This document shows, piece after piece, positions 22,710 through 42,264 of a DNA stretch of 45,634 bases. Origin of the DNA: Agreia sp. PsM10 (GTDB taxonomy: Bacteria > Actinomycetota > Actinomycetes > Actinomycetales > Microbacteriaceae); the NCBI RefSeq assembly GCF_030433855.1, contig NZ_JARUXC010000022.1, positions 1-45,634 of the forward strand. The letters are read 5' to 3'. The notes under the pieces are model-generated. The model did no database searches and had not been told where the DNA came from. It saw only the letters and a list, made by a program, of their open reading frames with translations. Within the stretch, counting starts at the first letter, position 1. Every line of letters starts with the position of its first letter. Made by a program: the position numbers and the translations under genes.

Positions 22710-22739
22710 CCGAAACATTCCGAAAGATCCCGAAAGCCC
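22710..22739 (+). promoter_or_regulatory. Three helically phased CCGAAA repeats
   Basis: Units ccgaaacatt, ccgaaagatc and ccgaaagccc follow one another with an exact 10-base period and abut the -35 box of the glycosidase gene. The unit resembles the half-site gccgaaag of the inverted repeat at 34371-34397 in front of the arabinoside transporter genes. It may be a binding array for the same LacI protein or for an activator. Confidence 0.45.
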
Positions 22740-22769
22740 TTGCGGCCCGGAAGAGCCCTGCAGTAACGT
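22740..22769 (+). promoter_or_regulatory. Predicted promoter of the large glycosidase gene
   Basis: TTGCGG (22740-22745) and TAACGT (22764-22769) are spaced by 18 bases. Transcription would begin near 22776, with GAGAGG before the GTG at 22816. Confidence 0.4.
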
Positions 22770-22815: not shown

Positions 22816-25800
22816 GTGGCATCCATGCACAAAGAACGACCTTCAGCGCGTCGGCGAATCACCAGGGGGCTCGCGGTCCTGGCCGCATCCACCCTGATCG
22901 CCACGGGCTTCGCGGCGACAACAGCCGCCCCGGCCTTCGCGGCCAACGACGACATCGGCTACCCGACTTTCGCGGGCGACGCCGACCCGGTTCCCGCGAC
23001 GGGCGACTACGACACCCGCAACCAGCTGCAGTCGATCTTCGACTCGGATGTGGCGGCGGGCGCCGGAACCGACCCGTCGAAGGACTTCTGGTTCGACAAG
23101 ATGCTCGCCCGCACCGGCACCGCCGGCAGCAACGGCGACAACAACCAGTGGCTCTTCACCCGCGGCCGCACCGTGTTCATGAAGGAGCACAGCCCCGAGG
23201 TTCTCGGCTTCGGCGGCCAGGTGGCCTACTGGGAGTCGATCGACAACCGCGGCGCCTACGACATCGTGCTGCGCGTCGGTGGAACCCCCGTCGCCCTCAC
23301 CGAGGTCACCGCCGAGCGCAAGCAGACGCCGAGTTATTGGCGCAGCGTGCACACCAATGAGGCCCAGGGCCTGCGCGTCGTTCAGACCAAGTTCATCACC
23401 AACGGCAACGTGGCCGTCACCAACCTCGACGTGTCGAGCACCGGCGGGGCCAGCATCGAGCTGCGCGCCGCCTCCGGCTACGCCACCACGGTCGAGGGCG
23501 ACGAGCTCACCGGCGTGGTCTCGTCCGCCAACAACCTCACCACGGTCTTCCCCCGGTTCTCGGGCGACGGCTTCACCGTCGACGCAGGCCAGCTGACCCG
23601 CACGCTGGATGTGCCGGCCGGCGGTACGGCCAGCGCCAAGGTGCAGCTCGGCTTCGTGACGCCGGAGATCGAGGAGAGCCGTACGGAGTACGACGCCGTG
23701 CGCGCCGCCACCCCTGCCGCAGCCTTCACCACGAGCGTGACCACCTACAACAAGTGGTGGGCAGACAACGTGCCCTACCTCGACACCCCGGAAGACAACA
23801 TCGACAAGACGCTGTTCTACCGCTGGTGGCTCATGCGATTCAACTTCCTCGACGCGAACATCCCGGGCAACGACTACCAGTTCCCCACCTCGATGGAGGG
23901 CGTGCTCGGCTACAACAACGCGATCGTGCTCACCACGGGCATGTTCATCGACGACCTCAAGTACTTCCGCGACCCGATCTACTCGTACGGCCCCTGGGTG
24001 TCGGCGGGCGAGACGAGCAAGAGCTACAAGTTCGTCGACAACCCCGGCGACCCCGCCAACTGGTCGAACAGCTACACGCAGTACATCTCCGAGGCCGCGT
24101 GGCGCGCCTACCAGCTGCACGGCGGGCCCGCACCCATCGCATCCAACCTCGCCGAATACGCCGAGTACGACGTGAAGGGCCTGCTCGACGCCTACGACAC
24201 CGACGACAGCGGCCTGATCGACTACAACTGGGGCGCGATGACGGGCAACGATGCCGACGCCGTGTCGTTCCACGAACGGCCCAACGCCAGCATGGACCGC
24301 ACCGAGAACGCCTACCTCTACTCGAACGCGCTGGCGTCCGCCGAGGCCTACCGGCTGGCAGGCAACACCGCCAAGGCCGACGAGATGGACGACTTCGCGC
24401 AGACCATCAAGGACAAGGTCGTCGAGCTCCTGTGGGACTCCGACGAGAACCTGCTGAAGCACCGCTTCACGTCTGACGGGCAGCTCGCGAAGTGGAAGGA
24501 GATCAACAACTACTACCCCTTCACGGTCGGCCTCATGCCGAAGCCGGGCGACGCGGACTACAACGACGACTACGTCGACGCCCTGCGCCTGTTCGCCGAC
24601 GACAAGCAGTACCCGATCTTCCCGTTCTACACGGCGAACCAGGCCGACCAGGCCGACTACGGCGGACCGGGCAGCAACAACTTCTCCGTCATCAACTCCA
24701 CGGTCACCTTCCGCATGCTGGCCAGCGTTCTGCGCAACTACCCGACCGACGCGATCGACTCCGAGTGGTACAAGAAGCTGCTCTACTGGAACGCCTGGTC
24801 GCACTACCAGAACGGCGGAGACAACCGGCTGCCCGACCAGAACGAGTTCTGGTCGAACGGCTCGGCCGACCCCCAGAACATCGGGTACCGCTCGTGGATC
24901 CACCACACGATCCTCGGAACCACGAACTTCACGATGATCGAGGATGCGATGGGCCTGCGCCCCCGCACCGACGCCAAGATCGAACTCGACCCGATCGACA
25001 TCGAGTGGGATCACTTCACCGCGAACAACATCAAGTACCGCGACAGCGACCTCACGATCACGTGGGACGCGCCCGGCGGCACGAAGTACTACGGCGCCGA
25101 CGTTCCCGAGGGCTACTCGGTGTTCCTCGACGGCGAGCTGGCCTTCACGGTCGACAAGCTCAGCCACGTGACCTACGACCCGGCCACGGGCCAGGTCGAG
25201 GCTCCGGACGGCGTCACGGTCACGACCGAGACGACGAAGGATGTCACGGCTCCTCGAGACGTACAGTTCGCGTCGACCGACCGCGTCGTCGACCTGTTCG
25301 CCAAGGCGGGCGCCGACATCGACCCCCGCAGCGTCGGATCGACGAATCTCGCAGCGGGTCAGCCGGTCACGGCCACGTTCTCGGCGGGCTCTCGCCCGCC
25401 GGCCGGCGCGGTGAACGGCACGACCATCAACGAGCCCTTCTGGGGAACCGCCGGTTCTCCGAACGCGAAGGACTCGATCGAGGTCGACCTCGGCTCGGCG
25501 AAGTCCTTCGACGACATCCGGGTCTTCTTCTACAACTCCTCGTCGACCGCCACGGTGCAGGGCTACTCCGAGCCCGCGCAGTACACGATCGAGTATCAGG
25601 ACGGCAGCACCTGGAAGCCGATCCCGGCCCAGGCCAGGACACCCGTCTATCCGCGGGCCAACCTGAACCAGTCCCAGTTCCCCGAGATCACGGCGCAGAA
25701 GGTCCGGGTCACCTCGACCCATGCGGCCGGGTTCAAGACGGGAATCAAGGAGGTGCAGGTCTTCTCGACCGGCGTCGAGGCCCCGGCCTCGACGAACCAG

Positions 25801-28800
25801 AAGCCGCAGGTGGATGCGTGGCGTGACGCCGCGTACACGGCCGCCGGCCAGGCGCGCCTCATCGGCACGGCCAAGGACGACGGCCTGCCGGGCACCGACC
25901 TCACCACGAGCTGGAGCGTCGTGAGCGCACCGGCAGACGGCCTCGCCGTCTTCGAGAGCCCGGATGCCGCCACCAGCGTCGTGCGCTTCACCGCGGCCGG
26001 CGACTACACGCTGCGCCTCACGGTGAACGATGGAGAGCTCTCGAGCACGAAAGACGTGGTCGTCACCGCCGAGGTCGCCGCGGGCGGCAACAACGTCGCG
26101 GGATCAGCGACGCCCACGGCCGAGTTCACCGCCGGCTGGAACAACGTGAACGCCGTGAACAACGGCACGATCCTGCACTCCGGCGGCGCCCAGACCGAGC
26201 TCTGGGGCACGTGGTCGGGCTCTCGCCCGGCGACGCGCTGGCTGCAGTACGACTGGTCGAGCCCCGTGCGGGTCAACTCGCTCGAGGCCAGCTTCTGGGC
26301 CGACCAGACGAGCGCCACCAGCGGTGCCGGCGTCAACATTCCGAAGTCGTGGAAGGCCCAGTACTGGGACGGCGCGGCCTGGGTCGACGTCGAGAACCCC
26401 AGCGCCTACGGGGTGGCGCGATCGGCGCCGAACTCGGTCACGTTCGACGCGGTCACCACCACGAAGCTGCGACTCGTGCTCTCGGCAGCAGGCCCGGGCA
26501 CGGGCAACGATCCCTACGCGGGTGTCGCGGTCAGCGAGTGGAAGGTGTTCGCCGAGGCCCCCGAGTCTCTCGACCCGGTCTCCGTTCGCACCAGCGTCGG
26601 GGTGGCCCCGGTTCTTCCGGCGACGGTCGACGCTGTCTTCGCAGACGGTTCGCGCCAGGCCACTCCGGTTGCCTGGGCTCCGATCGACGCGGCCAACTAC
26701 GCGAACGAGGGCAGCTTCGAGGTCATCGGCCTCGTCGACGGGGCATCGGCTCCGGCGAAGGCCACCGTCTGGGTCCGCGCGACGCCTCCGGGCCAGATCA
26801 ACACGATCGACCCGGTCTCCGTGAAGACGAGGGCGGGCGTCGCCCCGGCCCTGCCGTCGACCGTCACCGTGCAGTACAACGACGGATCACGGCAGAGCGG
26901 CGTGGCCGTGGACTGGGCCGACATCGACGCGGCCCAGTACGCCACAGACGGAACGTTCACCGTGGCCGGCACCGTGGAGAACTCTCCCGTCGCCGCCTCG
27001 GCCACCGTTCAGGTCGGCACAGGCTCGCCCGTCGACTCGACGAAGCCCGTCGTGACGATCACCCCGTCGAGTGCCGTCCCGGCATCCGGCTGGTACACGG
27101 GCCCCGTGACCGTGACTCTCTCGGCCACAGACAACGCCGATCCGGCCCCCGTGCTCGAGTACGCGGTCGACGGCGGAGCCTGGACGGCCTACACGGAGGG
27201 CGTCGCGGTCTCGGCCGACGGCAGCCACACCGTTCAGGCCAGGGCGCGCGACGCCGCGGGCAACGTGTCGACGGTCAAGGAGCTCACCTTCACGATCGAC
27301 GCGACGAAGCCCGCCATCGTGAGCGTTCCGGATGCGATCGGTCGCACGGTCAAGGCCAGTGCGAGCGACTCCGGGTCGGGAGTCGCGAGCCTCGAGTACC
27401 GGATCGGCGACGCCGTGGAGTGGACCGCGTACACACGCACCATCCTCGTCGGACTCGACGAGACGGTCGTGCACCTGCGCTCCGCCGACAAGGCGGGCAA
27501 CGTGACCGAGGCCGAGCCGGTGACCGTCGCCGCCAGCGACGGAAACCACCGACGCAACGTGGCGCTGTTCGCCGTACCCACGGCATCCGTCACCGCCGGC
27601 TGGAACTCGGTGAACGGACTCAACGACGATGTGCTGCCGACCTCGTCGGGAGATGTCACCCCGAACGACAACGCCAACGTCTGGGGCGCCTGGCCCGAGA
27701 TCGGCACCCAGTGGGTGCAGTACGACTGGACGGAGGAGGTGACCGTCGATGAGGCGCAGCTCTACTTCGTCTCGAACCTCGACGGCGCGGGCGTGGGCAT
27801 CTCGGTGCCGAAGTCGTACATCGTGCAGGCCTGGAACGCCGAGACGTCGACCTGGGTCGAGGTGGCCAACGCATCGGAGTACCCGACCGCGATCGACACC
27901 TTCAACACGGTCACGTTCGACCCGGTCACGACCACGAAGCTGCGTGTCGAGCTGAAGGCCGCCGGCACTGCGTCGGGTGCCGGAAGCCTCGGCATCAAGG
28001 AGTGGCGCGTCTTCGAGAAGGCCGAGGTCGTGGTGCCCGACACCACGGCGCCGGTGCTCACCGTCGCCGTCGCCCCCGAGGCTCCCGCGTCCGGCTGGTT
28101 CACCGGCACGGCCACGATCACCGCATCGGCGATCGACGACCGTGACGACGTACCGAAGGTCGAGGCCAAGGTCGGCGACGCCGAATGGGCACCGTACACG
28201 GCGGCCATCGCGGTCTCGACCGACGGCAGCACAACGGTGCTGCTGCGGGCGACGGATGCCGCCGGCAACGTCTCGGAGACGCAGACCGTGACCGTGAAAC
28301 GCGACACCACGGCGCCGACGGTCACGCAGGCCTTCGATTCGGCCGCGCGCACTCTCACGCTGACGGCGTCGGATGCCTCATCGGGCATCGCCCAGGTCGA
28401 GTACCGCGTCGCGGGCGGCGAGTGGACGGTCTACTCCGCCCCCTTCGGCACCGGCGACGCGGCCGTGACGATCGACTACCGGGCGAGCGACCTGGCGGGC
28501 AACCGTTCGGACAGTGCCTCCGTCGATGTTCCGGCCAAGCCGACAGGGCCCGTCGACCCGACGGATCCGACCGACCCGACCGACCCGGGAACGCCGACCG
28601 ATCCGGGCACCCCCGGTGAGCCGTCGGGCGGCCTGACCGGCCTCGAGAAGCTGAACCTCGGCGTCACGACGGTCTCCCCGGGCGGACAGGTTCCGGTGTC
28701 GTTGAGGAACGCCGAGCCCGGCGCGGTCTTCCGCATCGAGCTGCGCAGCACCCCGGTCACGCTGGGAACGCTGACGGTGGCTGCCGACGGCACGGCTCAG

Positions 28801-29067
28801 GCCGTCGTGACGATCCCCGTGTCGACCGAGGCCGGAGCGCACCGCATCGTGCTCGTGAACCCGGGCGGCGAGCTGTCGGCGCCGATCACCGTGGTGGTCG
28901 CGGGAGGCCCCGGGCCCGACGCGATCGCATCCACAGGAATCGGGGAGCCGGTGGGCTTCATCGCCTGGGCCGCGACCCTCGCGCTGATCGCCGGACTGGG
29001 TCTGTACCTCACGACCCGGTCGCGTCGTTCGACGCGCACGACGGACTCCGCCGCGCTGCTGGAGTAG
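22816..29067 (+). CDS. Giant secreted (alpha/alpha)6 glycosidase, probable GH121 beta-L-arabinobiosidase
   Basis: A 2083-residue exported enzyme. A signal peptide ends near residue 43 (TAAPAFA/AND). Residues about 45-760 form an N-terminal sandwich and an (alpha/alpha)6-barrel of the MGH1/GH63-like clan; candidate catalytic acids are E361 (FPTSMEGVLGYNNA), D494 (NASMDRTENAYLY) and E677 (LPDQNEFWSNG). Then follow F5/8-type-C modules (about 841-986, 1092-1251, 1577-1735), a PKD-like domain (987-1090), two bacterial Ig-like domains (1252-1402), OmpL47-like domains (1407-1572, 1742-1909), a Pro/Thr/Asp linker, a last Ig-like domain and a membrane helix (2047-2067) with a basic tail. The pre-helix motif is IASTG, not LPXTG. 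Architecture and the GH43, GH127 and ABC neighbours point to GH121, which releases beta-L-arabinobiose from extensin-type chains. GH63-, GH142- or mannosylglycerate-hydrolase-like activity is the alternative. Confidence 0.75.
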   Translation: MASMHKERPSARRRITRGLAVLAASTLIATGFAATTAAPAFAANDDIGYPTFAGDADPVPATGDYDTRNQLQSIFDSDVAAGAGTDPSKDFWFDKMLARTGTAGSNGDNNQWLFTRGRTVFMKEHSPEVLGFGGQVAYWESIDNRGAYDIVLRVGGTPVALTEVTAERKQTPSYWRSVHTNEAQGLRVVQTKFITNGNVAVTNLDVSSTGGASIELRAASGYATTVEGDELTGVVSSANNLTTVFPRFSGDGFTVDAGQLTRTLDVPAGGTASAKVQLGFVTPEIEESRTEYDAVRAATPAAAFTTSVTTYNKWWADNVPYLDTPEDNIDKTLFYRWWLMRFNFLDANIPGNDYQFPTSMEGVLGYNNAIVLTTGMFIDDLKYFRDPIYSYGPWVSAGETSKSYKFVDNPGDPANWSNSYTQYISEAAWRAYQLHGGPAPIASNLAEYAEYDVKGLLDAYDTDDSGLIDYNWGAMTGNDADAVSFHERPNASMDRTENAYLYSNALASAEAYRLAGNTAKADEMDDFAQTIKDKVVELLWDSDENLLKHRFTSDGQLAKWKEINNYYPFTVGLMPKPGDADYNDDYVDALRLFADDKQYPIFPFYTANQADQADYGGPGSNNFSVINSTVTFRMLASVLRNYPTDAIDSEWYKKLLYWNAWSHYQNGGDNRLPDQNEFWSNGSADPQNIGYRSWIHHTILGTTNFTMIEDAMGLRPRTDAKIELDPIDIEWDHFTANNIKYRDSDLTITWDAPGGTKYYGADVPEGYSVFLDGELAFTVDKLSHVTYDPATGQVEAPDGVTVTTETTKDVTAPRDVQFASTDRVVDLFAKAGADIDPRSVGSTNLAAGQPVTATFSAGSRPPAGAVNGTTINEPFWGTAGSPNAKDSIEVDLGSAKSFDDIRVFFYNSSSTATVQGYSEPAQYTIEYQDGSTWKPIPAQARTPVYPRANLNQSQFPEITAQKVRVTSTHAAGFKTGIKEVQVFSTGVEAPASTNQKPQVDAWRDAAYTAAGQARLIGTAKDDGLPGTDLTTSWSVVSAPADGLAVFESPDAATSVVRFTAAGDYTLRLTVNDGELSSTKDVVVTAEVAAGGNNVAGSATPTAEFTAGWNNVNAVNNGTILHSGGAQTELWGTWSGSRPATRWLQYDWSSPVRVNSLEASFWADQTSATSGAGVNIPKSWKAQYWDGAAWVDVENPSAYGVARSAPNSVTFDAVTTTKLRLVLSAAGPGTGNDPYAGVAVSEWKVFAEAPESLDPVSVRTSVGVAPVLPATVDAVFADGSRQATPVAWAPIDAANYANEGSFEVIGLVDGASAPAKATVWVRATPPGQINTIDPVSVKTRAGVAPALPSTVTVQYNDGSRQSGVAVDWADIDAAQYATDGTFTVAGTVENSPVAASATVQVGTGSPVDSTKPVVTITPSSAVPASGWYTGPVTVTLSATDNADPAPVLEYAVDGGAWTAYTEGVAVSADGSHTVQARARDAAGNVSTVKELTFTIDATKPAIVSVPDAIGRTVKASASDSGSGVASLEYRIGDAVEWTAYTRTILVGLDETVVHLRSADKAGNVTEAEPVTVAASDGNHRRNVALFAVPTASVTAGWNSVNGLNDDVLPTSSGDVTPNDNANVWGAWPEIGTQWVQYDWTEEVTVDEAQLYFVSNLDGAGVGISVPKSYIVQAWNAETSTWVEVANASEYPTAIDTFNTVTFDPVTTTKLRVELKAAGTASGAGSLGIKEWRVFEKAEVVVPDTTAPVLTVAVAPEAPASGWFTGTATITASAIDDRDDVPKVEAKVGDAEWAPYTAAIAVSTDGSTTVLLRATDAAGNVSETQTVTVKRDTTAPTVTQAFDSAARTLTLTASDASSGIAQVEYRVAGGEWTVYSAPFGTGDAAVTIDYRASDLAGNRSDSASVDVPAKPTGPVDPTDPTDPTDPGTPTDPGTPGEPSGGLTGLEKLNLGVTTVSPGGQVPVSLRNAEPGAVFRIELRSTPVTLGTLTVAADGTAQAVVTIPVSTEAGAHRIVLVNPGGELSAPITVVVAGGPGPDAIASTGIGEPVGFIAWAATLALIAGLGLYLTTRSRRSTRTTDSAALLE

Positions 29068-29075
29068 TCGCACCC

Positions 29076-29124
29076 CCCGTCGACAGGCTCAGGGAACGGA
29101 CCGTTCCCTGAGCCTGTAGAAGGG
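29076..29124. repeat. Palindromic cttcgacaggctcaggg repeat, near-perfect copy
   Basis: Arms 29076-29099 and 29101-29124 match at 22 of 24 positions around one central base, with the core acaggctcagggaacgg and its complement. It begins 8 bases after the glycosidase stop and ends 37 bases before the GH43 start. As RNA it forms a very strong hairpin, so it may end or separate the two messages. I recognise the family from actinobacterial genomes. Confidence 0.8.
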
Positions 29125-29161
29125 CACCCCGCTCGACCGCACGATCAACGAAAGATCACAC

Positions 29162-32100
29162 GTGAAACGCACCATTCGCACGACCGCCGCGCTGCTCGCC
29201 ACCGGCCTCGTCGCATCCGGCCTCGCGCTCGTCGCCGCCGCATCGGCGAACGCGGCCACGTCGAACCCCATTCTGGGCGACGGGTCGTACTACTCGGCAG
29301 ACCCGGCGACCCTCGTGGTCGACGACACGCTCTACATCTACGCGGGCCGCGACGAGGCGTCCGCCACCCAGAACGACTTCATCATGAACGAGTGGCAGGC
29401 GTTCTCGACCACAGACGTCGACTCCGGGGTCTGGGAGCACCACCCCGCGCTCATGCGCCCCGAGGCCGTCTTCGACTGGGCGACACCCGGACGCGCCTAC
29501 GCCGGCCAGGTCGTCGAGGGTATCGACGGGCGCTACTACTGGTACGTGCCGGTGCACGAGGCCGCGAGCACCTCGGAGGACAAGTTCGGCATCGGCGTGG
29601 CCGTGAGCGACAACCCGCTCGGCCCCTGGACCGACCACGCTGGCGGCCCGATCGTGTCGCAGAAGATCCTCGGCAACACGATCCACAACATCGACCCCAC
29701 CGTGTTCGTCGACGACGACGGAGAAGTGCAGATGTACTGGGGCAGCTTCGGCCAGGCCCGGCGCATCGAGCTCGCAGCAGACATGAAGACGCTCGTGGGC
29801 AGCGCGCAGACGGTCACCGGACTCACCGGGTTCTTCGAAGCCCCGTGGCTGTTCGAGCGCAATGGCACCTACTATCTGGCCTACGCGGGCAACGACGTGG
29901 GCAGCACCTGCACCCCGGCGAACTACCACGCGTGCATCGGCTACGCCTCGGCGCCCAGCGCCACCGGCCCGTGGACCTACCGCGGCACGGTTCTCGCTCC
30001 GGTCTCATCGACCACCAGCCATCCGGCGATCACCGAGTTCGACGGCGAGTGGGTCATCGCTTACCACACGGCGGATGCGGTGGGCGGCAACCACTTCAGG
30101 CGCTCGGTGGCCATCGACACGGTCGAGTGGGACGACACTCAGACGCCGGCCCGCATGAAGCTCGTGACGCAGACTCCCGAGAAGCAGGCGAACACCACGC
30201 CGCGCACGAACATCGCGCCCTGGGCGCAGGTCACCGTGTCGAACGACCCGGTTCCCACCCAGTACTGGGTGAAGGCCCTCAACGATGAGATCGTGCGCCC
30301 CAATCCGCTGCCGCCGGACATGTGGGGCAGCTGGACCGGGACCCGGCCCGCGGAGCAGTGGCTGCAGTACACGTGGCCGCATCCGGTGCGCATCTCGAGC
30401 ACCGAGATCAAGTTCTTCCGCGACGTGGCGCCGGGCACGGGCAACGGGGTCTCGAACCCGGAGTCGTGGACCCTGCAGTACTGGAAGGAGGGCGCCTGGG
30501 TCGACGTGCCGAACGCCAGCCCGTACGGCACCTCGACCACGTCGCCGCAGTCGACGACCTTCGACGCCGTCACCACGACGCAGGTGCGCGCGGTGCTCAA
30601 GGCGTCGCCCGGCACGGCCAATCCATCGGAATACTCCGCCCTCGCTGTGGAGGAGTGGAAGGTCAACGCCGATTCGGCGACGGGCTACACCCCGGCGGCG
30701 GTCAGCACGCTCGTCGGCGAGCTCCCCGAGCTGCCCGAGACCGTCGACGTGACGTATGCGGGCGGCGTCACCCTTCCCGTGACGGTCGCGTGGTCGCCGG
30801 TGGATGCGGCCGACGTCGCGGCGCCCGGCACATTCACCGTGTCGGGTTCCGCGCAGGGATACGCCACGTCGCAGGTCGAGGCCACCGTCACGGTGCTCGG
30901 CGGTGACGAGCTGCGCACGAACGTCGCGCTCGACGCGACGGCCGCCGCGAGCTACACGGCGCCGTGGAATGCGGTCGCCGGGCTCAACGACGGAACCGAG
31001 CCGACGGCATCCGGCGATGTCACGCCCGACGACAACGCCCAGGTCTGGGGCGCCTGGCCGCAGGTCGGGCCGCAGACGATCGAGTACGAGTGGGCGAGTC
31101 CGGTGCGCATCGACGAGAGCGCCCTGTACTTCGTGCACAACCTCGACGCTTCAGGCGATGGGATCGCGGTGCCGAAGTCGTGGTCGCTCGAGTACTGGGA
31201 CGCGGCGACGGAGACCTGGGTCGCCGTGCCGAACGCCTCCGCCTACGGCACCGAGGTCGACGCCTACAACACCGTGACCTTCGACGCCGTGACCACGACG
31301 AAGCTGCGTGCGCAACTCGTCGCCCAGGGAACGGTGGAGGGCAGGTCGAGCCTCGGAGTGAAGGAGTGGACGGTGCTGGGCGAACCCGCCGATCTCGCCG
31401 CTCCGACCATGGCGCTCACCGTCACCGGGTCGCAGGGCGCCGGCGGCTGGTACCTCTCGAACAGCACGGTGCGGGCCACGGCTGTCGACGACCGAGACAT
31501 CCGCAGCCGCATCGAGCTGAAGTCGGGGTCGGGCGCGTGGACGGCGTTCGAGAACGTGCGCTTCGCCGAGATCCTCGTGAGCGCCGAGGGCGCCACCGAG
31601 GTGCGGGCGAGGGCGACGGATGCCTCGGGCAACGTCAGCGAGGAATCGCTCGTGACCGTGTCGATCGACAAGACGCTGCCCACCGCGCAGGCCACGGTCG
31701 ACGCGGCCGCGCGCCAGGTGACCGTCACGGGCGCCGACGCGGTGTCGGGACTCGCGACCACCGCGGGGCTCGAGTACTCGATCGACAACCAGCTCGGCTG
31801 GCAGGCCTACACGGCCCCGGTCGTGGTCGACGAGCAGAAGCACGACGTGTTCTACCGGGCACGCGACGCGGCCGGCAACGTGTCGGTCGCCGGCAAGGCC
31901 ACCGTCCCGATCTCGAGCACGGTTCCGCTCACCGGCAACATCGCGCCCCTCGCCACCGCGACCGCGTCGTTCTCGTCGAGCTGGACATCGGTCGGCGCCA
32001 TCAACGACGGCGCCGCCGACGGATCGAGCTGGGGAACCTGGCCCGAAGTCGGCGAGCAGTGGGTGCAGCTCACCTGGGATCGCATCGTCGACGTCGACAG

Positions 32101-33184: not shown

Positions 33185-33200
33185 GCCGCGGGTAGCGCTC

Positions 33201-33253
33201 GCCCCTTCGACAGGCTCAGGGAACGGATCGTTCCCTGCCCCTGTCGAAGGGCG
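33201..33253. repeat. Palindromic cttcgacaggctcaggg repeat between convergent genes
   Basis: Arms 33201-33225 and 33229-33253 match at 21 of 25 positions around a 3-base loop; the core is ccttcgacaggctcaggg. It fills the gap between the GH43 gene and the convergent LacI gene and probably works as a bidirectional terminator. Confidence 0.8.
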
Positions 33254-33264
33254 TGCCCTCGCAC

Positions 33265-34299
33265 TCAGCGGCGGGCTATCGTCGATCCCCTGATGACCAG
33301 GCGACCCGGCAGGTTCTCCACTCCGGGAGCCGCTGCCGTTCCATCGATGGCATCGAAGATGCGGGTGGCGGCCATGCGCCCGAGCTGCTGCAGGTTGGCG
33401 TCGATACTCGTGAGCTCGGGGCGCGAGTTCGTGGCCAGGATCTCCCAGTTGTCGAAGCTCACCACGGCCACGTCGTGCGGAACCTCGCGGCCGAGGTCGC
33501 GCATCGTGTCGAGCACGCCCCGCGCGATCTGGTCGGAGCCGGCGACGATGCCGTCGATGTCGGGGAACTGTCGGAAGAGCATGGCCGACGCGTCGCGACC
33601 CCAGTGCTCCGACCATTCCGAGAACATGGGGCGCCCCACCAGCTCGAGGCCGGCGTCGCCGAGCGCATCCATGACCCCTGCGGCCCGGTCCTGGGCGGCG
33701 GCATAGGCGGCCTCCCCGGTGATCATCGCGATCTTCGAACGGCCGCACGCGATGAGATGTTCGACCGCGAGGCGGCCGCCCGCCCGGTTGTCCGGAGTGA
33801 TCGACACGTCGGTGGGGTCTTCGCTCGGGGCGTAGGCGTAGACCACGGGAACGGGGATGTTGTGCCCGAGAGAGGGGCGGGGATCGGTCGAGCGGCCCAC
33901 CACGATGATGCCGTCGACCCGGCGCGTGAGCAGCGCGTTCAGGTGATGCTGCTCGCGGATCGCGTCGCCACGGGCGTCGCAGAGGAAGACGTTGACCTGG
34001 CCTGCGCCGAACGCGTCTTCCGCGCCCATGAGAATGGGGATCACGAAGCGACCCTCGAGGTCGCTCGTGAGCAGGCCGACCGTTCCCGTTCGACCGTTGA
34101 TCAGGCTGCGCGCCAATTCGTTGGGCGTGAACGAGATCTTCTTAGCCGCTTCGAGCACGCGTTGGCGCGTCGCGGCCGCAACCTCGCCGCGGCCGTTGAT
34201 GGCCTTCGACGCCGTCGCAAGAGACACACCGGCGATCTTCGCCACGTCGCTGAGCGTGGCAGCGCGGCCCCCCGCTGTGCCCGTTCTGTTGTCTGACAT
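33265..34299 (-). CDS. LacI-family regulator of the arabinoside locus
   Basis: A 344-residue LacI-type regulator. The helix-turn-helix lies at about residues 14-37 (ATLSDVAKIAGVSLATASKA) and the sensor domain at about 70-340, with DNRAGGRLAVEHLIACGRSKIAMITG, GIVAGSDQIARGVLDTMRDLGREVPHDVAVVSFDN and LTSIDANLQQLGRMAA. I chose the ATG at 34299, with AGAGG 5 bases upstream; earlier codons are non-coding. It is divergent from the ABC importer and GH127 genes. An inverted repeat directly after the importer promoter (34371-34397) is its likely operator. The inducer may be arabinose or beta-arabinobiose, by analogy with related loci. Confidence 0.92.
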   Translation of the reverse strand: MSDNRTGTAGGRAATLSDVAKIAGVSLATASKAINGRGEVAAATRQRVLEAAKKISFTPNELARSLINGRTGTVGLLTSDLEGRFVIPILMGAEDAFGAGQVNVFLCDARGDAIREQHHLNALLTRRVDGIIVVGRSTDPRPSLGHNIPVPVVYAYAPSEDPTDVSITPDNRAGGRLAVEHLIACGRSKIAMITGEAAYAAAQDRAAGVMDALGDAGLELVGRPMFSEWSEHWGRDASAMLFRQFPDIDGIVAGSDQIARGVLDTMRDLGREVPHDVAVVSFDNWEILATNSRPELTSIDANLQQLGRMAATRIFDAIDGTAAAPGVENLPGRLVIRGSTIARR

Positions 34300-34340
34300 G
34301 CGCACCTCTTCCGTGAAGAAAAGGCTACAGGAGAATGCAC

Positions 34341-34370
34341 TTGACGTCGCTGCAGGCCACGCGCTAGCCT
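34341..34370 (+). promoter_or_regulatory. Predicted promoter of the arabinoside transporter operon
   Basis: TTGACG (34341-34346) and TAGCCT (34365-34370) are spaced by 18 bases. The expected start near 34377 lies inside the inverted repeat 34371-34397. The leader to the ATG at 34462 is about 85 bases and ends with AAAAGGAG. Confidence 0.6.
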
Positions 34371-34397
34371 GCCGAAAGGCGTTTCGAAGCTTTCGGC
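34371..34397. promoter_or_regulatory. Inverted repeat, candidate LacI operator
   Basis: Perfect 8-base arms GCCGAAAG (34371-34378) and CTTTCGGC (34390-34397) flank an 11-base centre that contains the palindrome TTCGAA. The site directly follows the -10 box and covers the transcription start, the classical place for a repressor. The LacI gene is divergent, beginning at 34299. Confidence 0.6.
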
Positions 34398-34461
34398 TTC
34401 TGCCCGAACCTGAAGGACCTCGCACGGTCCACTCAACGTAGAGTCAAAAGGAGAATCACAG

Positions 34462-35757
34462 ATGATCACCACAGCAGGTAATCGCATGCGACGGGCGGGA
34501 GGCGTGCTGCTCGCCGGCGCACTCATCGCCGGACTCGCCGCATGCTCCGGTGGCGGAACCGCCGCGGACCCCGCAGCCAGCGCCGGCCCGGAAGGAACCG
34601 ACGACGGAAGCGAGCTCACCCTCTGGACCCGCGCCCCGCTCGAGAAGCAGGCCAACCTGCTCGTCGACGCGTACAACGCGAGCCACGAGAACCAGGTCAA
34701 GCTCACCGTCGTGCCGAACGACGACTACGTGGCCAAGGTCGGTGCCGCAGCCGGCTCCGGAAGCCTTCCCGATCTGTTCGCCGCAGACATCGTCTACGTG
34801 CCGAACTGGGTGGAACAGGGACTGTTCCAGGACATCTCGACCAACATCGACGGCCTCGACTTCAAGGACTCGATCAACAAGGGGCACCTCTCGGCCGGCA
34901 CCGTCGACGACAAGGAGCATGTGCTGCCCTTCGTGCTCGACCTCTCGATGATGTTCTGGAACAAGGAGCTCTACAAGGAGGCCGGACTCGACCCCGAGAA
35001 GGGGCCGACGACCCTCGCCGAGTTCGCCGAACAGGCCAAGGCGGTTCAGGCGCTCAACAAGCCCGACACCTACGGCACGGCCACGGGCCTCAACTGCGGC
35101 GGCTGCCTCGTCTTCACCTGGTTCCCGAGTGTCTGGGCATCGGGCGACGAGGTCATGAACGGCGACGGAACCGAGTCGCTGCTCGCCGAGAAGAACGCGA
35201 AGGACGTCTTCGCCACGTGGGCCGACCTGTGGGCCTCCGGAACGGTGCTGCCGTCGTCGAAGGATGAGGCCGGCCCCACCTGGACCGCCGGATTCACCGA
35301 GGGCAAGGTCGGCGTTATGCCTTACCCCGCCACGCTGCTGAGCTCCACGCCCTTCGATGTGGGCGTCGCCGGCATCCCGGGGCCGGATGGCGGCGCCTCG
35401 ACGTTCGTCGGTGGCGACGGCATCGGAATCTCGAAGGACTCCAAGAAGTCGCCCCAGGCGTGGAACTTCCTCAACTGGCTGATGTCGGAGGACGCGCAGG
35501 TCGAGGTCCTCGCGAAGGACAGCGACGTGGTCTCCCGCAGCGACCTGTCGAGCAACGCCTACTCCGACAAGGATCCGCGCCTGGTCACGATCAACGAGGT
35601 CGCGGCCAAGGGCGACACCCCCGTGTCGAAGAACTTCCAGGAGGCGTTCAACTCGCCGACCGGCCCGTGGCTCGAACTCGTGCGCAACGCGGTTCTCGAC
35701 GGCAGCGACTCGCTCGACGCCGACAACGAGGCCATCACCGAGGTGCTCTCGCAGTAA
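34462..35757 (+). CDS. Carbohydrate ABC transporter substrate-binding lipoprotein, family 1
   Basis: A 431-residue sugar-binding lipoprotein. The lipobox GLAAC places the acylated cysteine at residue 28, followed by a Gly/Ala/Ser spacer and the family-1 fold (ELTLWTRAPLEKQANLLVDAYNA, GSLPDLFAADIVYVPNWVEQGLF, WNKELYKEAGLDPEKGPTTLAEF). An unusual CGGC pair sits in GLNCGGCLVFTWFP, perhaps a disulfide near the sugar site. AAAAGGAG lies 8 bases before the ATG. It heads the operon with two permeases and the GH127 enzyme, and probably binds beta-arabinobiose or a related arabino-oligosaccharide released outside by the two anchored glycosidases. The ligand is inferred from context only. Confidence 0.92.
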   Translation: MITTAGNRMRRAGGVLLAGALIAGLAACSGGGTAADPAASAGPEGTDDGSELTLWTRAPLEKQANLLVDAYNASHENQVKLTVVPNDDYVAKVGAAAGSGSLPDLFAADIVYVPNWVEQGLFQDISTNIDGLDFKDSINKGHLSAGTVDDKEHVLPFVLDLSMMFWNKELYKEAGLDPEKGPTTLAEFAEQAKAVQALNKPDTYGTATGLNCGGCLVFTWFPSVWASGDEVMNGDGTESLLAEKNAKDVFATWADLWASGTVLPSSKDEAGPTWTAGFTEGKVGVMPYPATLLSSTPFDVGVAGIPGPDGGASTFVGGDGIGISKDSKKSPQAWNFLNWLMSEDAQVEVLAKDSDVVSRSDLSSNAYSDKDPRLVTINEVAAKGDTPVSKNFQEAFNSPTGPWLELVRNAVLDGSDSLDADNEAITEVLSQ

Positions 35758-35776
35758 CCGGCGTCACCAGCGTCAT

Positions 35777-35807
35777 CCGGGGCGGGCGCCCGCAACGCCT
35801 GCCCCGG
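35777..35807 (+). terminator. Intercistronic hairpin after the arabinoside SBP gene
   Basis: CCGGGGCGGGCG (35777-35788) and CGCCTGCCCCGG (35796-35807) form a 12-bp stem with one G-U pair and a 7-base loop. There is no T-run. It stands between the binding-protein and permease genes, just like the hairpin at 6058-6086 of the other importer. Confidence 0.7.
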
Positions 35808-35843
35808 CTCCACACCCGCATCACCGCATCGAAAGGCTCCCTC

Positions 35844-36800
35844 ATGAGCACCACCGTCACTCCGGCATCGGCGCCGGTCGCGGCGACCCGGCCCGGTCGT
35901 GCTCCGTCCCGACGCCGCCCGCGACGCTCCAGACAGGGCCAATCCGGAGGGGCCCTCACGGGCTGGCTGTTCGCGCTGCCCACGGCGCTGTTCGTCGTCC
36001 TCCTCTTCCTGGTGCCGCTCGTGCTCGTCTTCCAGATGGCGGCGTCGGACTGGCCGCTGCTCGGCGGCAACCAGGGCATCAACTTCCCCGAGAACTTTCC
36101 CGAGGCCCTCGACAACCGCTTCTTCATCGATTCGGTCATCTTCACCCTGAAGTACACCGTCCTGGCCACGGTGCTGCTCATCGGCCTCGGCCTCGGGCTC
36201 GCACTGCTCGTGCAGGAGTCCAGCCGCTGGAAGGGGTTCCTGCGAACCGCCTTCCTGGTACCCAGCGCGCTCGGCCTCGCATCGGCATCCCTGCTCTTCT
36301 ACGTTCTCTACTCGCCCATCGCGGGCCCGTTCGCCGAGCTCACGAAGTCGTGGGGGTTCACGTTCCTCGGCACCCCGGATGCCGCGCTCTGGTCGACCCT
36401 GTTCCTGATCGTCTGGCGGTTCGCCGGCTTCTACATGTTGTTGATGCTCGTGGGCCTGCAGGGCATTCCCGAGGAGGTCTACGAGGCCGCCCGCATCGAC
36501 GGCGGATCACGCTGGCAGATCTTCCGCGACATCACGGTTCCCCTGCTCAAGCCCACGCTGGCGCTGACCACCGTGATGTGCGTCACCGGATCGCTGCTCG
36601 CCTTCGAGCAGTTCTACATCCTCACCAAGGGCGGCCCCGACAACAGCACCATCACCGTCGTTCAGCTGATCTACAACGTGGCCTTCCAGGGGCCGAACAA
36701 CCTCGGCGTCGCCGGTGCCTTGTCGGTCATCGTGCTCGCCGCCCTCGTGATCATCAACATCGTGCAGATCCGCGCGTTCAGCAAGAAAGCCGAGGACTGA
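35844..36800 (+). CDS. Carbohydrate ABC transporter permease, MalF/UgpA type
   Basis: A 318-residue inner-membrane permease with a basic, Arg/Pro-rich N-terminal tail (about 1-40) and six membrane segments. The EAA loop reads EEVYEAARIDGGSRWQIFRD, then ITVPLLKP, the contact site for an ATPase that is not encoded nearby. GAAAGG precedes the ATG at 35844 by 7 bases; the long open frame upstream is a shadow of the binding-protein gene. It pairs with the permease that starts 4 bases after its stop. Its substrate is presumed to be an arabino-oligosaccharide. Confidence 0.92.
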   Translation: MSTTVTPASAPVAATRPGRAPSRRRPRRSRQGQSGGALTGWLFALPTALFVVLLFLVPLVLVFQMAASDWPLLGGNQGINFPENFPEALDNRFFIDSVIFTLKYTVLATVLLIGLGLGLALLVQESSRWKGFLRTAFLVPSALGLASASLLFYVLYSPIAGPFAELTKSWGFTFLGTPDAALWSTLFLIVWRFAGFYMLLMLVGLQGIPEEVYEAARIDGGSRWQIFRDITVPLLKPTLALTTVMCVTGSLLAFEQFYILTKGGPDNSTITVVQLIYNVAFQGPNNLGVAGALSVIVLAALVIINIVQIRAFSKKAED

Positions 36801-36804
36801 AGCC

Positions 36805-37716
36805 GTGACCGCTCTCATCGAACCGCCCACGACCGTCGCGGCCGACCGCCCGGCCGAGCCGCCCCGCGGGGGCCGCAAGGCGCCTCGCACGACGAGTCTC
36901 GGCGGAATCGCCATCCAGATGCCGTTCTGGGTTCTGACCGCGGCACTCGCCGTGATCTTCCTCTACCCGCTGGTGTGGACCGCGATCTCATCGGTCGCGC
37001 CGCTCGCGGGCACGAATCAGACCGATGGCTGGGGCCTCGGCAACTACATCACGCTGGCGAACTACCAGGACGGCATTCTGCAGTACATCGGCAACTCGGT
37101 GTTCGTGTCGCTGCTGACCGTGGTGCTCACGCTCGTGATCTCGCTGCTCGGGGGGTACGCGTTCGCCCGGTTCAGCTTCCACGGCAAGAACGCGCTGTTC
37201 CTCGCGACGATCGCGATCCTGATGGTGCCGTATGCCACGCTGCTCATTCCGTTGTACGTGCTGCTCAACATGGTCGGCCTGTCGAACTCCCTCGTCGGAG
37301 TGGCGTTGGTGCTCACGATGTTCCAGCTGCCGTTCTCGACCTTCATGATGCGCATCGCGTTCGAGTCGATCCCGAAAGAACTCGACGAGGCCGCGATGGT
37401 CGACGGCTGCAACTCGTGGACGGTGCTGTGGAAGGTGCTCGTGCCGGCCGTGAAGCCGGGGCTCATCACGGTGGGGCTGTTCGCGTTCCTCGCGGCGTGG
37501 AACGACTTCATGGCTCCGCTCATCCTGATCAACGACTCGGCGAAGATGACTCTTCCGCTCGCCGTGTCGAACCTGCGCGGGCAGGTGCAGGGCGTCGTCG
37601 ACTACGGCGCGACCGAGGCCGGCGTCGTCGTTCTCGCACTCCCGTGCATCCTTCTCTTCCTCATCCTTCAACGTCACTACGTGCGCGGCTTCATGTCGGG
37701 CGCTTTCAAGGGGTAA
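36805..37716 (+). CDS. Carbohydrate ABC transporter permease, MalG/UgpE type
   Basis: A 303-residue inner-membrane permease with six membrane segments. The family markers are VNMVGLSNSLVGVALVLT-like central segment, the EAA loop KELDEAAMVDGCNSWTVLWK followed by VLVPAVKP, and the C-terminal QRHYVRGFMSGAFKG typical of MalG proteins. GTG start at 36805, 4 bases after the preceding stop; GH127 begins 2 bases after this gene's stop. Such tight packing shows that transport and intracellular cleavage are made together. Confidence 0.92.
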   Translation: MTALIEPPTTVAADRPAEPPRGGRKAPRTTSLGGIAIQMPFWVLTAALAVIFLYPLVWTAISSVAPLAGTNQTDGWGLGNYITLANYQDGILQYIGNSVFVSLLTVVLTLVISLLGGYAFARFSFHGKNALFLATIAILMVPYATLLIPLYVLLNMVGLSNSLVGVALVLTMFQLPFSTFMMRIAFESIPKELDEAAMVDGCNSWTVLWKVLVPAVKPGLITVGLFAFLAAWNDFMAPLILINDSAKMTLPLAVSNLRGQVQGVVDYGATEAGVVVLALPCILLFLILQRHYVRGFMSGAFKG

Positions 37717-37718
37717 CC

Positions 37719-39728
37719 ATGTCACTCATCACTCGAACCGTCGCAGCTCCGGTGGTTCCCACCTCCGGTGCGCTCCGACCCCTGGGCCTCGACGAGGTTC
37801 GCATCACCGGCGGCTTCTGGCAGGACCGCCAGCAGGTCAATGGAGAAGCCACCCTCCCGCACATCGAGCACTGGCTCGAGAAGGAGGGCTGGCTCGCCAA
37901 CTTCGACCGGGTCGCCGCGGGCCTCACCGCGTCGGAGGGTCGGCGCGGACGCGAGTTCTCCGATTCCGAGATCTACAAGTACCTCGAGGCCGTGGCCTGG
38001 GAGATCGGCCGCCTCGGTGACTCCGGCTCCGATCGGCGCAACGCTCTCGAGGCCCGCTTCCGTGCAGTGGTCGACCGGGTCGCCGCGGCGCAGGATGCCG
38101 ACGGCTACCTGAACACCCGGTTCGGCCATGCGGGCCAGGAGTCCCGCTGGACGCAGCTCGAGTGGGGCCACGAGCTCTACTGCCTCGGCCACCTGTTCCA
38201 GGCCGCCGTCGCCCGGGAGCGCACGGCGCCCGGCGCAGACGACGGGCTGCTGTCGATCGCCCGACGCGCCGCCGACCTGATCGTCGAGAGCTTCGGGGAG
38301 CACGGCATCCAGTCGGTCTGCGGCCACCCCGAGGTCGAAGTGGGCCTCGCCGAACTCGGCCGGGTCACGGGTGAGCAGTCGTACATCGACCTCGCCGAGC
38401 TGTTCGTCGAGCGACGCGGTCATCAGACGTTGAAGGACATCGAGTACGGACGGGCCTACTTTCAAGACGACGTTCCTGTTCGCGATGCGACCGTGCTCCG
38501 CGGGCACGCGGTTCGGGCGAACTACCTCGCCGCCGGAGCGCTCGACATCGCGGTGGAGAAGTCGGACTCCGGGTTGCTCGACGCGCTGAAGGCCCAGTGG
38601 CAGCGCACCGTCGACCGCCGCACCTATGTGACGGGCGGGCAGGGTTCGCACCATCAGGACGAGGCGTTCGGCGAGGACTGGGAGCTGCCCAGCGACCGCG
38701 CCTACTCCGAGACCTGCGCCGGCATCGCGTCGATCATGTTCAGCTGGCGGCTGCTGCTCGAGGAGAACGACGTGCGCTACGCCGACCTGATCGAGCGCAC
38801 CCTGTTCAACGTGGTGGCGACGTCGCCCTCGGCTGAGGGAACGGCGTTCTTCTACGCCAACACGCTGCACCAGCGCACGCCCGGAGAGGCCGGTTCGCCC
38901 GACGAGATCTCGCCGCGCGCGTCGTCGTCGGTGCGCGCGCCCTGGTTCGAGGTGTCGTGCTGCCCGCCGAACGTGGCGCGCACCTTCGCGAGCCTCGCCG
39001 CCTACGTGGCGACCGTAGACGACACGGGGCTGCAGCTGCACCAGTACGCTCCCGCCACGATCGACACGCAGCTGGGCGGTGGCGGCGGGCGCCTCGGCGG
39101 GCGACTCGCGGTGGAGGTCGAGACCGACTACCCGCGCTCGGGCCGCATCGTGGTGCGCGTCGTCGAGGCGCCGTCCGACGAGGTGTCGCTGTCGCTGCGC
39201 GTTCCTTCGTGGGCGACGGGCGCGACGCTCGCCGTCGGCGGTGGCGCGACGGAGGCCGGTGGCTCGACCGAGGCTGGCGGCTCGGCAGAGACCGTGTCGC
39301 CGGGCTATGCCACGGTGACGCGCGTGTTCTCTGCGGGCGACGTGCTCGAGCTCGACCTGCCCATGCGGCCGCGCTTCACGCGCCCCGACTCGCGCATCGA
39401 CGCGATCCGCGGCTCGGTGGCTGTCGAGCGCGGCCCTGAGGTGTTCTCGCTCGAGTCGGCGGGGCTGGCCGGCGTCGGCAGCGGCGAGGAGGAGTTCAGC
39501 CGCATCGAGATCGACGACACGGTCGAGCCTGTCGAATCGCATGTCGATGGGAGGCTGACCGTGACGCTGCGGGTCGCGCCCGAGGCGACGTCGGAGTGGC
39601 CGTACGAGTCGGAGCTGAATGCGGCCTCCGATGCCGAGGCGTTCACGGCGGAGCTGCTGCCGTACCACGCGTGGGGAAACCGCGGCCCGTCGACGATGCG
39701 CATCTGGATCCCGACGCAGCGCCGCTGA
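37719..39728 (+). CDS. GH127 beta-L-arabinofuranosidase (HypBA1-like)
   Basis: A 669-residue cytoplasmic GH127 enzyme. The zinc site of the family is complete: E331 and C333 in RAYSETCAGIAS, C414 and C415 in FEVSCCPPNVARTFAS. E315 in QDEAFGED matches the acid/base position known from HypBA1, and C414 the cysteine nucleophile. It removes non-reducing beta-L-arabinofuranose, for example from beta-1,2-arabinobiose. Residues about 1-430 form the (alpha/alpha)6 barrel, the rest beta-sandwich domains. A low-complexity insert GGATEAGGSTEAGGSAET lies near residues 508-525. It starts 2 bases after the permease stop, with AAGGGG upstream. GH127 also contains a few enzymes of other specificity, but the EC/CC motif set supports this call. 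Confidence 0.93.
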   Translation: MSLITRTVAAPVVPTSGALRPLGLDEVRITGGFWQDRQQVNGEATLPHIEHWLEKEGWLANFDRVAAGLTASEGRRGREFSDSEIYKYLEAVAWEIGRLGDSGSDRRNALEARFRAVVDRVAAAQDADGYLNTRFGHAGQESRWTQLEWGHELYCLGHLFQAAVARERTAPGADDGLLSIARRAADLIVESFGEHGIQSVCGHPEVEVGLAELGRVTGEQSYIDLAELFVERRGHQTLKDIEYGRAYFQDDVPVRDATVLRGHAVRANYLAAGALDIAVEKSDSGLLDALKAQWQRTVDRRTYVTGGQGSHHQDEAFGEDWELPSDRAYSETCAGIASIMFSWRLLLEENDVRYADLIERTLFNVVATSPSAEGTAFFYANTLHQRTPGEAGSPDEISPRASSSVRAPWFEVSCCPPNVARTFASLAAYVATVDDTGLQLHQYAPATIDTQLGGGGGRLGGRLAVEVETDYPRSGRIVVRVVEAPSDEVSLSLRVPSWATGATLAVGGGATEAGGSTEAGGSAETVSPGYATVTRVFSAGDVLELDLPMRPRFTRPDSRIDAIRGSVAVERGPEVFSLESAGLAGVGSGEEEFSRIEIDDTVEPVESHVDGRLTVTLRVAPEATSEWPYESELNAASDAEAFTAELLPYHAWGNRGPSTMRIWIPTQRR

Positions 39729-41139: not shown

Positions 41140-41168
41140 TTGCGTCTCGGCGGGAGGCGGGCTAGTGT
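41140..41168 (+). promoter_or_regulatory. Predicted promoter of the second LacI/ABC operon
   Basis: TTGCGT (41140-41145) and TAGTGT (41163-41168) are spaced by 17 bases. Transcription would begin near 41175, inside the operator region 41172-41198, so the LacI protein probably represses its own operon. Confidence 0.6.
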
Positions 41169-41171
41169 TCC

Positions 41172-41198
41172 TGTAAACGTTCTTGTAAACGATTACAA
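41172..41198. promoter_or_regulatory. LacI operator TTGTAAACGATTACAA with extra half-site
   Basis: TTGTAAACGATTACAA (41183-41198) is palindromic at 14 of 16 positions with a central CG, the typical form of LacI-family operators. An 8-base direct copy of its left half, TGTAAACG, lies just upstream at 41172-41179. The operator lies between the -10 box and the ribosome-binding site of the adjacent LacI gene. Confidence 0.7.
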
Positions 41199-41208
41199 AG
41201 GGAACCCC

Positions 41209-42228
41209 GTGACGAAGAAGTCCACACTCGTGCTGGTCGCCGAGCGCGCCGGTGTGTCGATCGCATCCGTCTCGCGGGTGCTCAACGGGCTTCCCGCATC
41301 GGATGGCGTGACCGAGCGCGTGCGCGAGGCCGCCACCGCCCTGGGCTACGTTCCCTCGGCCACGGCCCGCTCGCTCAAGGTCGGCAAGACCATGCAGATC
41401 GCGCTCGCCGTAGCCGACGTCGGAAACCCCGTCTACGTCGCCATGATGCACGAGGTCTCCCGTGTCGTGACCGAGGCCGGCTACCGCCTCGTGCTCTCGT
41501 CGACCGGAAGCGACCCCAGCGACCAGATCGATTTTCTCGCCGGCCTCAACCGCGGGTTCGCCGACGGGCTCATCATGAGCCCCCTGCGCGTGACCGACGA
41601 ACTCGTCGCCGCCCTGCAGGAGACGCGCGTGCCCGTCGTGATCATCGGATCGCTGCCCGCCGGCGTCGAATTCGACAACGTTCGCGCCGACTCGGCCAAG
41701 GGCATCGGCCTCGCCGTGAAGCACCTCGTGAAGGCGGGGCGCGAGCGCATCGCGTTCATCAACGGGCCCGTCGACACCGTTCCGGGCGCCGCTCGTCTCG
41801 CCGGGTACATGCGGGCCATGACCAAGCACGGCATGCCGCTGGTCGCCGACATGCAGGCCGCCGCCTCCGACTTCACCTACCGGGCCGGGCTCGACGCGGC
41901 CCGCGAACTCTTCTCGCAGTCGACCCCCGACGCCGTGGTGTGTGCGAACGACCTGCTCGCCGTCGCGGCGATGAAGGAGCTCAGCACCCGCGGCATCCGG
42001 GTGCCCGAGCAGGTGGCGGTGATCGGCATGGACGACACCGACATCGCCGAGCTCGCCAACCCCTCGATCACGAGTGTCGACCTGGGCTCGGTCAAGCGCG
42101 CGCGGGCCGCAGCGAAGCTGCTCATCCGGCGCCTCGAGACACCGGATGCGCCGGTCGAGCAGGTCGTGATCAAGCCGTCGCTGACCGTTCGCGAGTCCAC
42201 ACCCGGTGCACCGAACCTCACCCCCTGA
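41209..42228 (+). CDS. LacI-family regulator heading the second sugar ABC operon
   Basis: A 339-residue LacI-type repressor. The helix-turn-helix is at about residues 5-27 (STLVLVAERAGVSIASVSRV), followed by the hinge, and the sensor domain at about 60-330 (DSAKGIGLAVKHLVKAGRERIAFING, DAVVCANDLLAVAAMKEL, VPEQVAVIGMDDTDIAELANPSITSVDLGS). GTG start at 41209 with AAGGGA 5 bases upstream. An operator of its own family type overlaps its predicted transcription start, so it is probably autoregulated together with the three transport genes behind it. The inducer is unknown. Confidence 0.93.
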   Translation: MTKKSTLVLVAERAGVSIASVSRVLNGLPASDGVTERVREAATALGYVPSATARSLKVGKTMQIALAVADVGNPVYVAMMHEVSRVVTEAGYRLVLSSTGSDPSDQIDFLAGLNRGFADGLIMSPLRVTDELVAALQETRVPVVIIGSLPAGVEFDNVRADSAKGIGLAVKHLVKAGRERIAFINGPVDTVPGAARLAGYMRAMTKHGMPLVADMQAAASDFTYRAGLDAARELFSQSTPDAVVCANDLLAVAAMKELSTRGIRVPEQVAVIGMDDTDIAELANPSITSVDLGSVKRARAAAKLLIRRLETPDAPVEQVVIKPSLTVRESTPGAPNLTP

Positions 42229-42264
42229 CCCGACCCACCTCCCCACAATCGAAGAGGATGCACG

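Follow-up and report, generated by a model that had tools for sequence, protein, structure and literature searches.

The window analyzed here, a stretch of 45,634 nucleotides from Agreia sp. PsM10 (contig NZ_JARUXC010000022.1), contains at positions 22816 to 39728 seven genes encoding a GH121 enzyme, a GH43 enzyme, a LacI-family regulator, a solute-binding protein (SBP), sugar permeases 1 and 2, and a GH127 enzyme. The bacterium, related to isolates from leaves and soil, is an Agreia-like Microbacteriaceae member (genome of 4.01 Mb in 106 contigs), and the nearest named GH121 belongs to Agreia sp. Leaf283 (98%). Judged from sequence, the genes very probably constitute a complete hyp/bau-type locus for the utilization of beta-L-arabino-oligosaccharides, a reading to which we give a probability of a little under nine in ten. 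All genes named in an original prediction of such a locus were recovered at their places by Pfam and structure matches, and its functional reading appears sound in that the GH121, SBP, and GH127 proteins each match a protein of the experimentally studied Bifidobacterium longum system.

In a phmmer search, amino acids (aa) 42 to 835 of the GH121 protein aligned with residues 7 to 863 of 6M5A, the crystal structure of B. longum HypBA2 (E value of 2.2e-230; 771 bits). A catalytic domain outside GH121 would have spoken against the original prediction; the alignment with 6M5A ran from end to end. The next catalytic relative was 5MQR, and at 61 versus 771 bits a GH63, GH142, or mannosylglycerate hydrolase-like identity (Pfam name MGH1-like) was rejected. 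Mutation has shown E383, D515, and E713 of HypBA2 to be essential (PMC7263609), and their counterparts here are E361, D479, and E677. The catalytic Glu, Asp, and Glu were identical in 71 of 71 aligned GH121 rows; this alignment omitted three of 73 loci dropped by a filter (L042, L079, and L085), and the third motif was judged by alignment column, a regular expression having been too narrow and having missed many loci. The enzyme may release beta-arabinobiose from the hydroxyproline-linked arabino-oligosaccharide Ara3-Hyp. The remainder of the protein comprises F5/8C (discoidin)-type and Ig-like modules by Pfam, and its C terminus, read by eye, bears an IASTG motif and a membrane segment that the original prediction did not mention. 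GH121 is accordingly predicted to be secreted and wall anchored through this IASTG-type tail. By eye, the GH121 tails of relatives carried IASTG in L014, L015, and L016, LASTG in L034, and LPNTG in L019, and the host genome contained two sortase matches. The "much larger surface enzymes" first described were not borne out, GH121 being 2083 aa long compared with 1943 aa for HypBA2 (PMC7263609), about 7% longer. As a separate observation, the C termini of Paenibacillus GH121 proteins (L067, L068, L070, and L071) showed a dockerin-like stretch by eye.

The GH43 protein has a Pfam GH43 domain at aa 43 to 326 (E value of 3e-34) and carries SADPA, IDPTVF, and EAPW, which we take to be GH43 motifs. 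It has an LPATG tail at aa 1306, where Gram_pos_anchor scored 20.7 bits against a cutoff of 20. For GH127, the catalytic, middle, and C-terminal domains (PF07944, PF20736, and PF20737) were all above the Pfam cutoffs. Alignment with 3WKW (HypBA1) and 7EXU placed E315 at the acid/base position and E331, C333, C414, and C415 in the zinc/cysteine site, the roles of the individual residues being assumed; 7EXU itself differs from 3WKW at Glu322. All residues of the predicted Glu-Cys-Cys-Cys site were therefore present. The nucleophile of beta-L-arabinofuranosidase is a cysteine (PMC8106489, PMC10850190). No secretion signal was visible by eye in GH127, which is probably cytoplasmic. A GH146 identity was rejected for this enzyme: 5OPJ, presumably a GH146 structure, was absent from its solved-structure matches at an E value of 0.001. 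Matches to this structure came instead from a second DUF1680 protein encoded in the genome and from an extra DUF1680 enzyme of Streptomyces, both described below.

The SBP matched 6LCE with 425 bits (E value of 2.8e-126), the next structure scoring 94 bits; 6LCE is the beta-arabinobiose-binding protein, described as an exclusive binder of beta-Ara2 (PMC8106489). By tblastn, permease 1 was 56.6% identical over 281 aa and permease 2 54% identical over 300 aa to their Bifidobacterium asteroides counterparts, and LacI was 48 to 49% identical. An ABC ATPase domain was not found in any locus protein scanned, and the published account of the B. longum cluster likewise names an SBP and two membrane proteins (PMC7263609). 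This composition, a 6LCE homolog and two permeases without an ATPase gene, is that of a BauABC importer. The host genome encodes one MalK-type ATPase (PF17912). The neighbors of araA, which is on another contig, are genes for a LacI protein, an FGGY kinase, a class II aldolase, and a ROK regulator. The same contig (contig 31) also encodes, about 20 kb away from araA, the second DUF1680 protein (L089:6643-11028), a multidomain protein of 1461 aa scoring 574 bits to 8K7X and 533 bits to 8K7Y; both structures are labeled beta-L-arabinofuranosidase and are presumably bifidobacterial GH146 beta-1,3 enzymes.

The LacI protein has helix-turn-helix and ligand domains above the Pfam cutoffs. Its predicted operator, a 16-bp palindrome, was sought with a position weight matrix (PWM) built from six sites (two of them identical) that were picked by a related pattern in the LacI-SBP gaps of other Microbacteriaceae, Agreia excluded; the PWM was used instead of raw 8-mer counts, which were swamped by GC-rich words. 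The scan covered the plus strand, the motif being nearly palindromic. The two top matches in the window were at 34372 (21.3) and 22730 (18.0); the third scored 8.6, and 20 Markov controls gave maxima of 5.6 to 16.9. A pattern fitted to both operators matched twice in the 4.01-Mb genome, both times in the locus, while the reversed control matched 0 times. Since this pattern was composed once both window sites were known, and a hand estimate gives about one chance match per genome, its weight lies in both matches falling inside the locus. Sites shortly 5' of GH121 were present in seven of the eight named Microbacteriaceae loci scanned (scores of 11.8 to 18.1), including three without an SBP in the locus (L015, L020, and L034); in the exception, L019, GH121 is directly 3' of GH127. 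At the order level, the stretch 5' of the SBP was scanned in 29 other SBP loci, the best-scoring of 53 SBP-bearing genomes; in all 29 it had a site scoring higher than the best of its own 50 single-base shuffles. Among these 29, the sites of L133 and L134 were weak, those of L119 and L127 were identical to a training site, and L117 is the same genome as training locus L016. A BauR LacI regulon covering hypBA1, hypBA2, and bauABC has been published for bifidobacteria (PMC5928203), and the LacI gene with predicted palindromic operators before the hyp and bau genes would constitute a BauR-type regulon in the window.

Together these assignments suggest the following pathway. The wall-anchored GH43 would take the alpha-1,3-linked terminal arabinose off the Ara4-Hyp of extensin-type plant proteins, and the wall-anchored GH121 would then free beta-1,2-arabinobiose from Ara3-Hyp. 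The SBP would capture the disaccharide for import through the two permeases, powered by a common ATPase whose gene lies outside the locus. In the cytoplasm, GH127 would cleave beta-arabinobiose to two L-arabinose molecules via a zinc-bound cysteine nucleophile, and the products of araB, araD, and araA would channel L-arabinose into central metabolism. LacI would repress both transcription units at the 16-bp palindrome until a pathway sugar lifts the repression. The features concerned are collected in Table 1.

Table 1. Coordinates of the predicted features in the window
Feature	Position	Strand	Basis or remark
Predicted LacI operator CCGAAAGCCCTTGCGG	22730..22745	+	86 bp 5' of GH121 start codon; second-best PWM match
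GH121 beta-L-arabinobiosidase (putative), HypBA2-like, 2083 aa	22816..29067	+	phmmer to 6M5A, catalytic acids, Pfam
GH43 alpha-L-arabinofuranosidase (putative), HypAA-like by position, 1340 aa	29162..33184	+	Pfam GH43, Gram_pos_anchor
LacI-family regulator, BauR-like by position	33265..34299	-	Pfam, tblastn
Predicted LacI operator CCGAAAGGCGTTTCGA, between LacI and SBP	34372..34387	+	Best PWM match in window
Beta-arabinobiose-binding lipoprotein (SBP; putative)	34462..35757	+	Match to 6LCE
ABC sugar permease 1	35844..36800	+	PF00528; start chosen by eye
ABC sugar permease 2	36805..37716	+	PF00528
GH127 beta-L-arabinofuranosidase (putative), HypBA1 role	37719..39728	+	PF07944, PF20736, PF20737; 3WKW/7EXU alignment; likely start chosen by eye, raw open reading frame begins at 36975

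Several observations weigh against this reading. GH127 scored 262.7 bits to 3WKW and slightly more to 4QJY (286.5) and 6EX6 (282.4). The B. asteroides protein occupying the equivalent slot scores 933 bits to 3WKW and shares only 31% identity with the window GH127. Close orthology with HypBA1 was thus not found, and GH127 fell on a separate branch of a tree of 26 rows picked for spread, with long branches flagged. As LacI, SBP, and the permeases are 48 to 57% identical between the window and B. asteroides, the 31% figure suggests that the slot is occupied by different GH127 branches. The GH43 protein is a putative HypAA counterpart, placed by family and position (B. longum HypAA is a GH43_29 enzyme; PMC8939339), and a GH43 match was absent from 51 of 72 GH121 loci at a 40% identity cutoff, suggesting that the GH43 step is often missing or performed otherwise. 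By eye, no sorting tail was found in the GH121 of the close relatives L017, L018, and L020. An ATPase other than the MalK type could drive the importer. Several of the GH121-upstream scores in relatives (11.8 to 18.1) were within the range of the control maxima (up to 16.9) and take their weight only from position, and the PWM found no clear operator in B. asteroides, the best score being a weak 10.0 in the LacI-SBP gap.

The divergence of GH127, together with a top solved-structure match of GH43 labeled beta-xylosidase/alpha-L-arabinofuranosidase, would also fit enzymes of the same families acting on a different beta-L-arabinofuranosyl substrate, such as the arabinosides of rhamnogalacturonan II, peptide hormones, or arabinogalactan proteins. 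We consider this unlikely, given that the literature describes the protein matched by GH121 as specific for Ara3-Hyp and the one matched by the SBP as specific for beta-arabinobiose. Since both surface enzymes have sorting-type tails and discoidin-type modules, they might alternatively serve mainly in attachment or the loosening of wall proteins, with arabinose feeding secondary; the linked importer and cytoplasmic hydrolase, and the arabinose genes in the genome, make this more improbable still.

The distribution of the genes bears on whether the two halves of the locus belong together. GH121 was found in two of eight genomes of the genus and in 11 of 398 genomes of the family, the window's own included in each count; one of the 11 family matches (L013) was 42% identical and on a very long branch. 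Of the 398 family genomes, 43 had the SBP (E value of 1e-90), and every one of the 11 with GH121 was among them (hypergeometric P of 6.6e-12, uncorrected for relatedness, with both searches inferred to have covered the same 398 genomes). The figure of 43 refers to the SBP, the permeases and GH127 having been checked in part of the genomes, and six of these SBP matches were only 41 to 48% identical and may bind another sugar. GH121 was lacking in 32 of the 43 and, within the genus, in one genome with an SBP at 95% (G002), and at a looser cutoff (E value of 1e-60) the SBP was present in 53 of 396 genomes of the order. The 32 genomes with an SBP and without GH121 suggest the scavenging of beta-arabinobiose freed by neighbors. 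This nested distribution resembles that of bifidobacteria without hypBA2, which is absent from several strains having the other genes (PMC5928203).

In a species-level collection, 72 GH121 loci were found in Actinomycetota and Bacillota, 70 of them outside Bifidobacterium. The full core of LacI, SBP, permease 1, permease 2, and GH127 was present in 42 of the 72 at a 38% identity cutoff, while 11 had part of the core and 19 had no core gene, some of these loci being cut by contig ends; GH43 was present in 21 and core plus GH43 in 10. In 33 of the 42 full-core loci the order was LacI (minus strand), SBP, permease 1, permease 2, GH127, and GH121, three of these ending with GH43. B. longum has the same order ending with GH43, as read from locus tags (PMC7263609). 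The window has the gene content of B. longum in a different arrangement, GH121 and GH43 being placed before LacI and SBP. In all five genomes searched whose fetched GH121 locus had no SBP, one was encoded elsewhere. A search of the genus Bifidobacterium around B. asteroides found GH121 in 4 of 27 genomes (B. longum was compared through its solved structures); no importer gene was found in the fetched DNA around GH121 in B. asteroides and two congeners (L059, L062, L107, and L108), and in G398 the importer block was on a different contig. A chance neighborhood of a GH121-GH43 pair and an unrelated LacI/ABC/GH127 sugar operon might be suggested by genomes in which the halves are separated: Leifsonia aquatica and one B. 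asteroides have them on different contigs, Glaciibacter superstes has them about 24 kb apart, and Microbacterium Root166 has them more than 200 kb apart. This is the least probable explanation, as operator-like sites also precede GH121 in the three split Microbacteriaceae (L015, L020, and L034), GH121 is confined to SBP-bearing genomes of the family sample, and the clustering recurs in several actinobacterial families.

In a GH121 tree of 30 rows picked for spread, with long branches flagged and without Xanthomonas, the two B. asteroides rows, borne on a long stem, grouped with Microbacteriaceae and Paractinoplanes in a set with full support. Transfer from Xanthomonas has been suggested (PMC6085000), and the tree would counter this only insofar as a nearer source exists, Xanthomonas being unsampled. 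In actinobacteria, then, LacI, importer, and GH127 may form a common core that is partly a scavenger of beta-arabinobiose, GH121-GH43 a mobile add-on gaining the repressor's operator, and the GH121 of bifidobacteria from the gut and the bee gut may derive from actinobacteria of plants or soil and have been combined there with a different GH127, as its place in the tree would allow; we put this forward tentatively, as a scheme somewhat more likely to be wrong than right. In three tested Streptomyces loci, which include that of S. europaeiscabiei 96-14, an extra DUF1680 enzyme is encoded directly 3' of GH121 (L031:9472-11628, L025:14133-16349, and L024:14096-16234), and the closest solved structure to the L031 protein is 5OPJ. 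By analogy with XeHypBA1 of Xanthomonas, this enzyme might take the final arabinose off Ara-Hyp.

Two further features of the window were observed. A second LacI gene and two sugar permeases lie 3' of the locus at 41140 to 44117; their strongest operator match was weak (7.0 at 40981), and they look like a separate sugar system. A palindromic repeat with the core CCCTTCGACAGGCTCAGGGA occurs at 21448, 29076 to 29124, and 33203 to 33251 (five matches with at most three mismatches versus 0 expected), forming inverted pairs 3' of GH121 and 3' of GH43.

The system itself is already known, the locus being a well-preserved example of it, and the novelty first claimed for its occurrence outside Bifidobacterium did not survive the 70 further non-bifidobacterial loci and the literature: the Xanthomonas enzymes were characterized in 2018, with homologs named in Streptosporangium, Actinosynnema, and Micromonospora (PMC6085000), and published listings for Streptomyces genomes include GH121 (PMC6998099, PMC13403950). 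A Cryobacterium study reports GH127 in most related strains and its loss in the strain studied (PMC12113805), and a search of one paper collection, judged from titles, abstract openings, and selected passages, found no description of such a locus in Microbacteriaceae. What is added here is the operator, the nested distribution of GH121 and SBP, and the GH127 swap. In plant cell walls, 33 to 75% of hydroxyproline residues reportedly occur as Ara4-Hyp (PMC6085000). Its harvest seems to be within reach of a number of actinobacteria, and more appear limited to taking up the released disaccharide; if true, plant surfaces would host a producer/scavenger relation open to testing, with the predicted repressor and operator as a readout. 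S. europaeiscabiei 96-14, a scab pathogen, carries GH121, SBP, permeases, and GH127. Together with the GH121 and GH127 reported for S. acidiscabies (PMC13403950), these genes broaden the published picture, in which the genes were called unique to Xanthomonas among plant pathogens (PMC6085000).

With X. euvesicatoria, the window would share the succession of GH43 and GH121 on Ara4-Hyp (XeHypAA and XeHypBA2). The Xanthomonas enzymes differ in being secreted without a membrane anchor and encoded in an operon under HrpX, and XeHypBA1, listed as GH146 (PMC10850190), differs in being extracellular and acting on Ara-Hyp; the available text reports that X. euvesicatoria does not use L-arabinose and describes no importer (PMC6085000). 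The GH121 loci of Agreia sp. Leaf283, Paractinoplanes, Streptomyces, Nonomuraea, and Glycomyces have the same families, mostly with the LacI-SBP-permease 1-permease 2-GH127 core, in varying order; GH43 was matched in 0 of 14 Streptomyces and 3 of 18 Nonomuraea loci, some contigs being short. The fullest likeness is to hypBA1, hypBA2, hypAA, and BLLJ_0208-0210 (the BauR1 regulon) of B. longum JCM 1217, with GH121, GH43, GH127, SBP, two permeases, and LacI in common, as well as the conserved active-site residues, an SBP homologous to 6LCE, and, as predicted here, an anchored GH121 and a cytoplasmic GH127. The window operator had no clear match in B. asteroides, the bifidobacterial DNA compared, and, unlike in B. 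longum, GH121 and GH43 precede LacI and SBP, and the GH127 comes from a distant branch.

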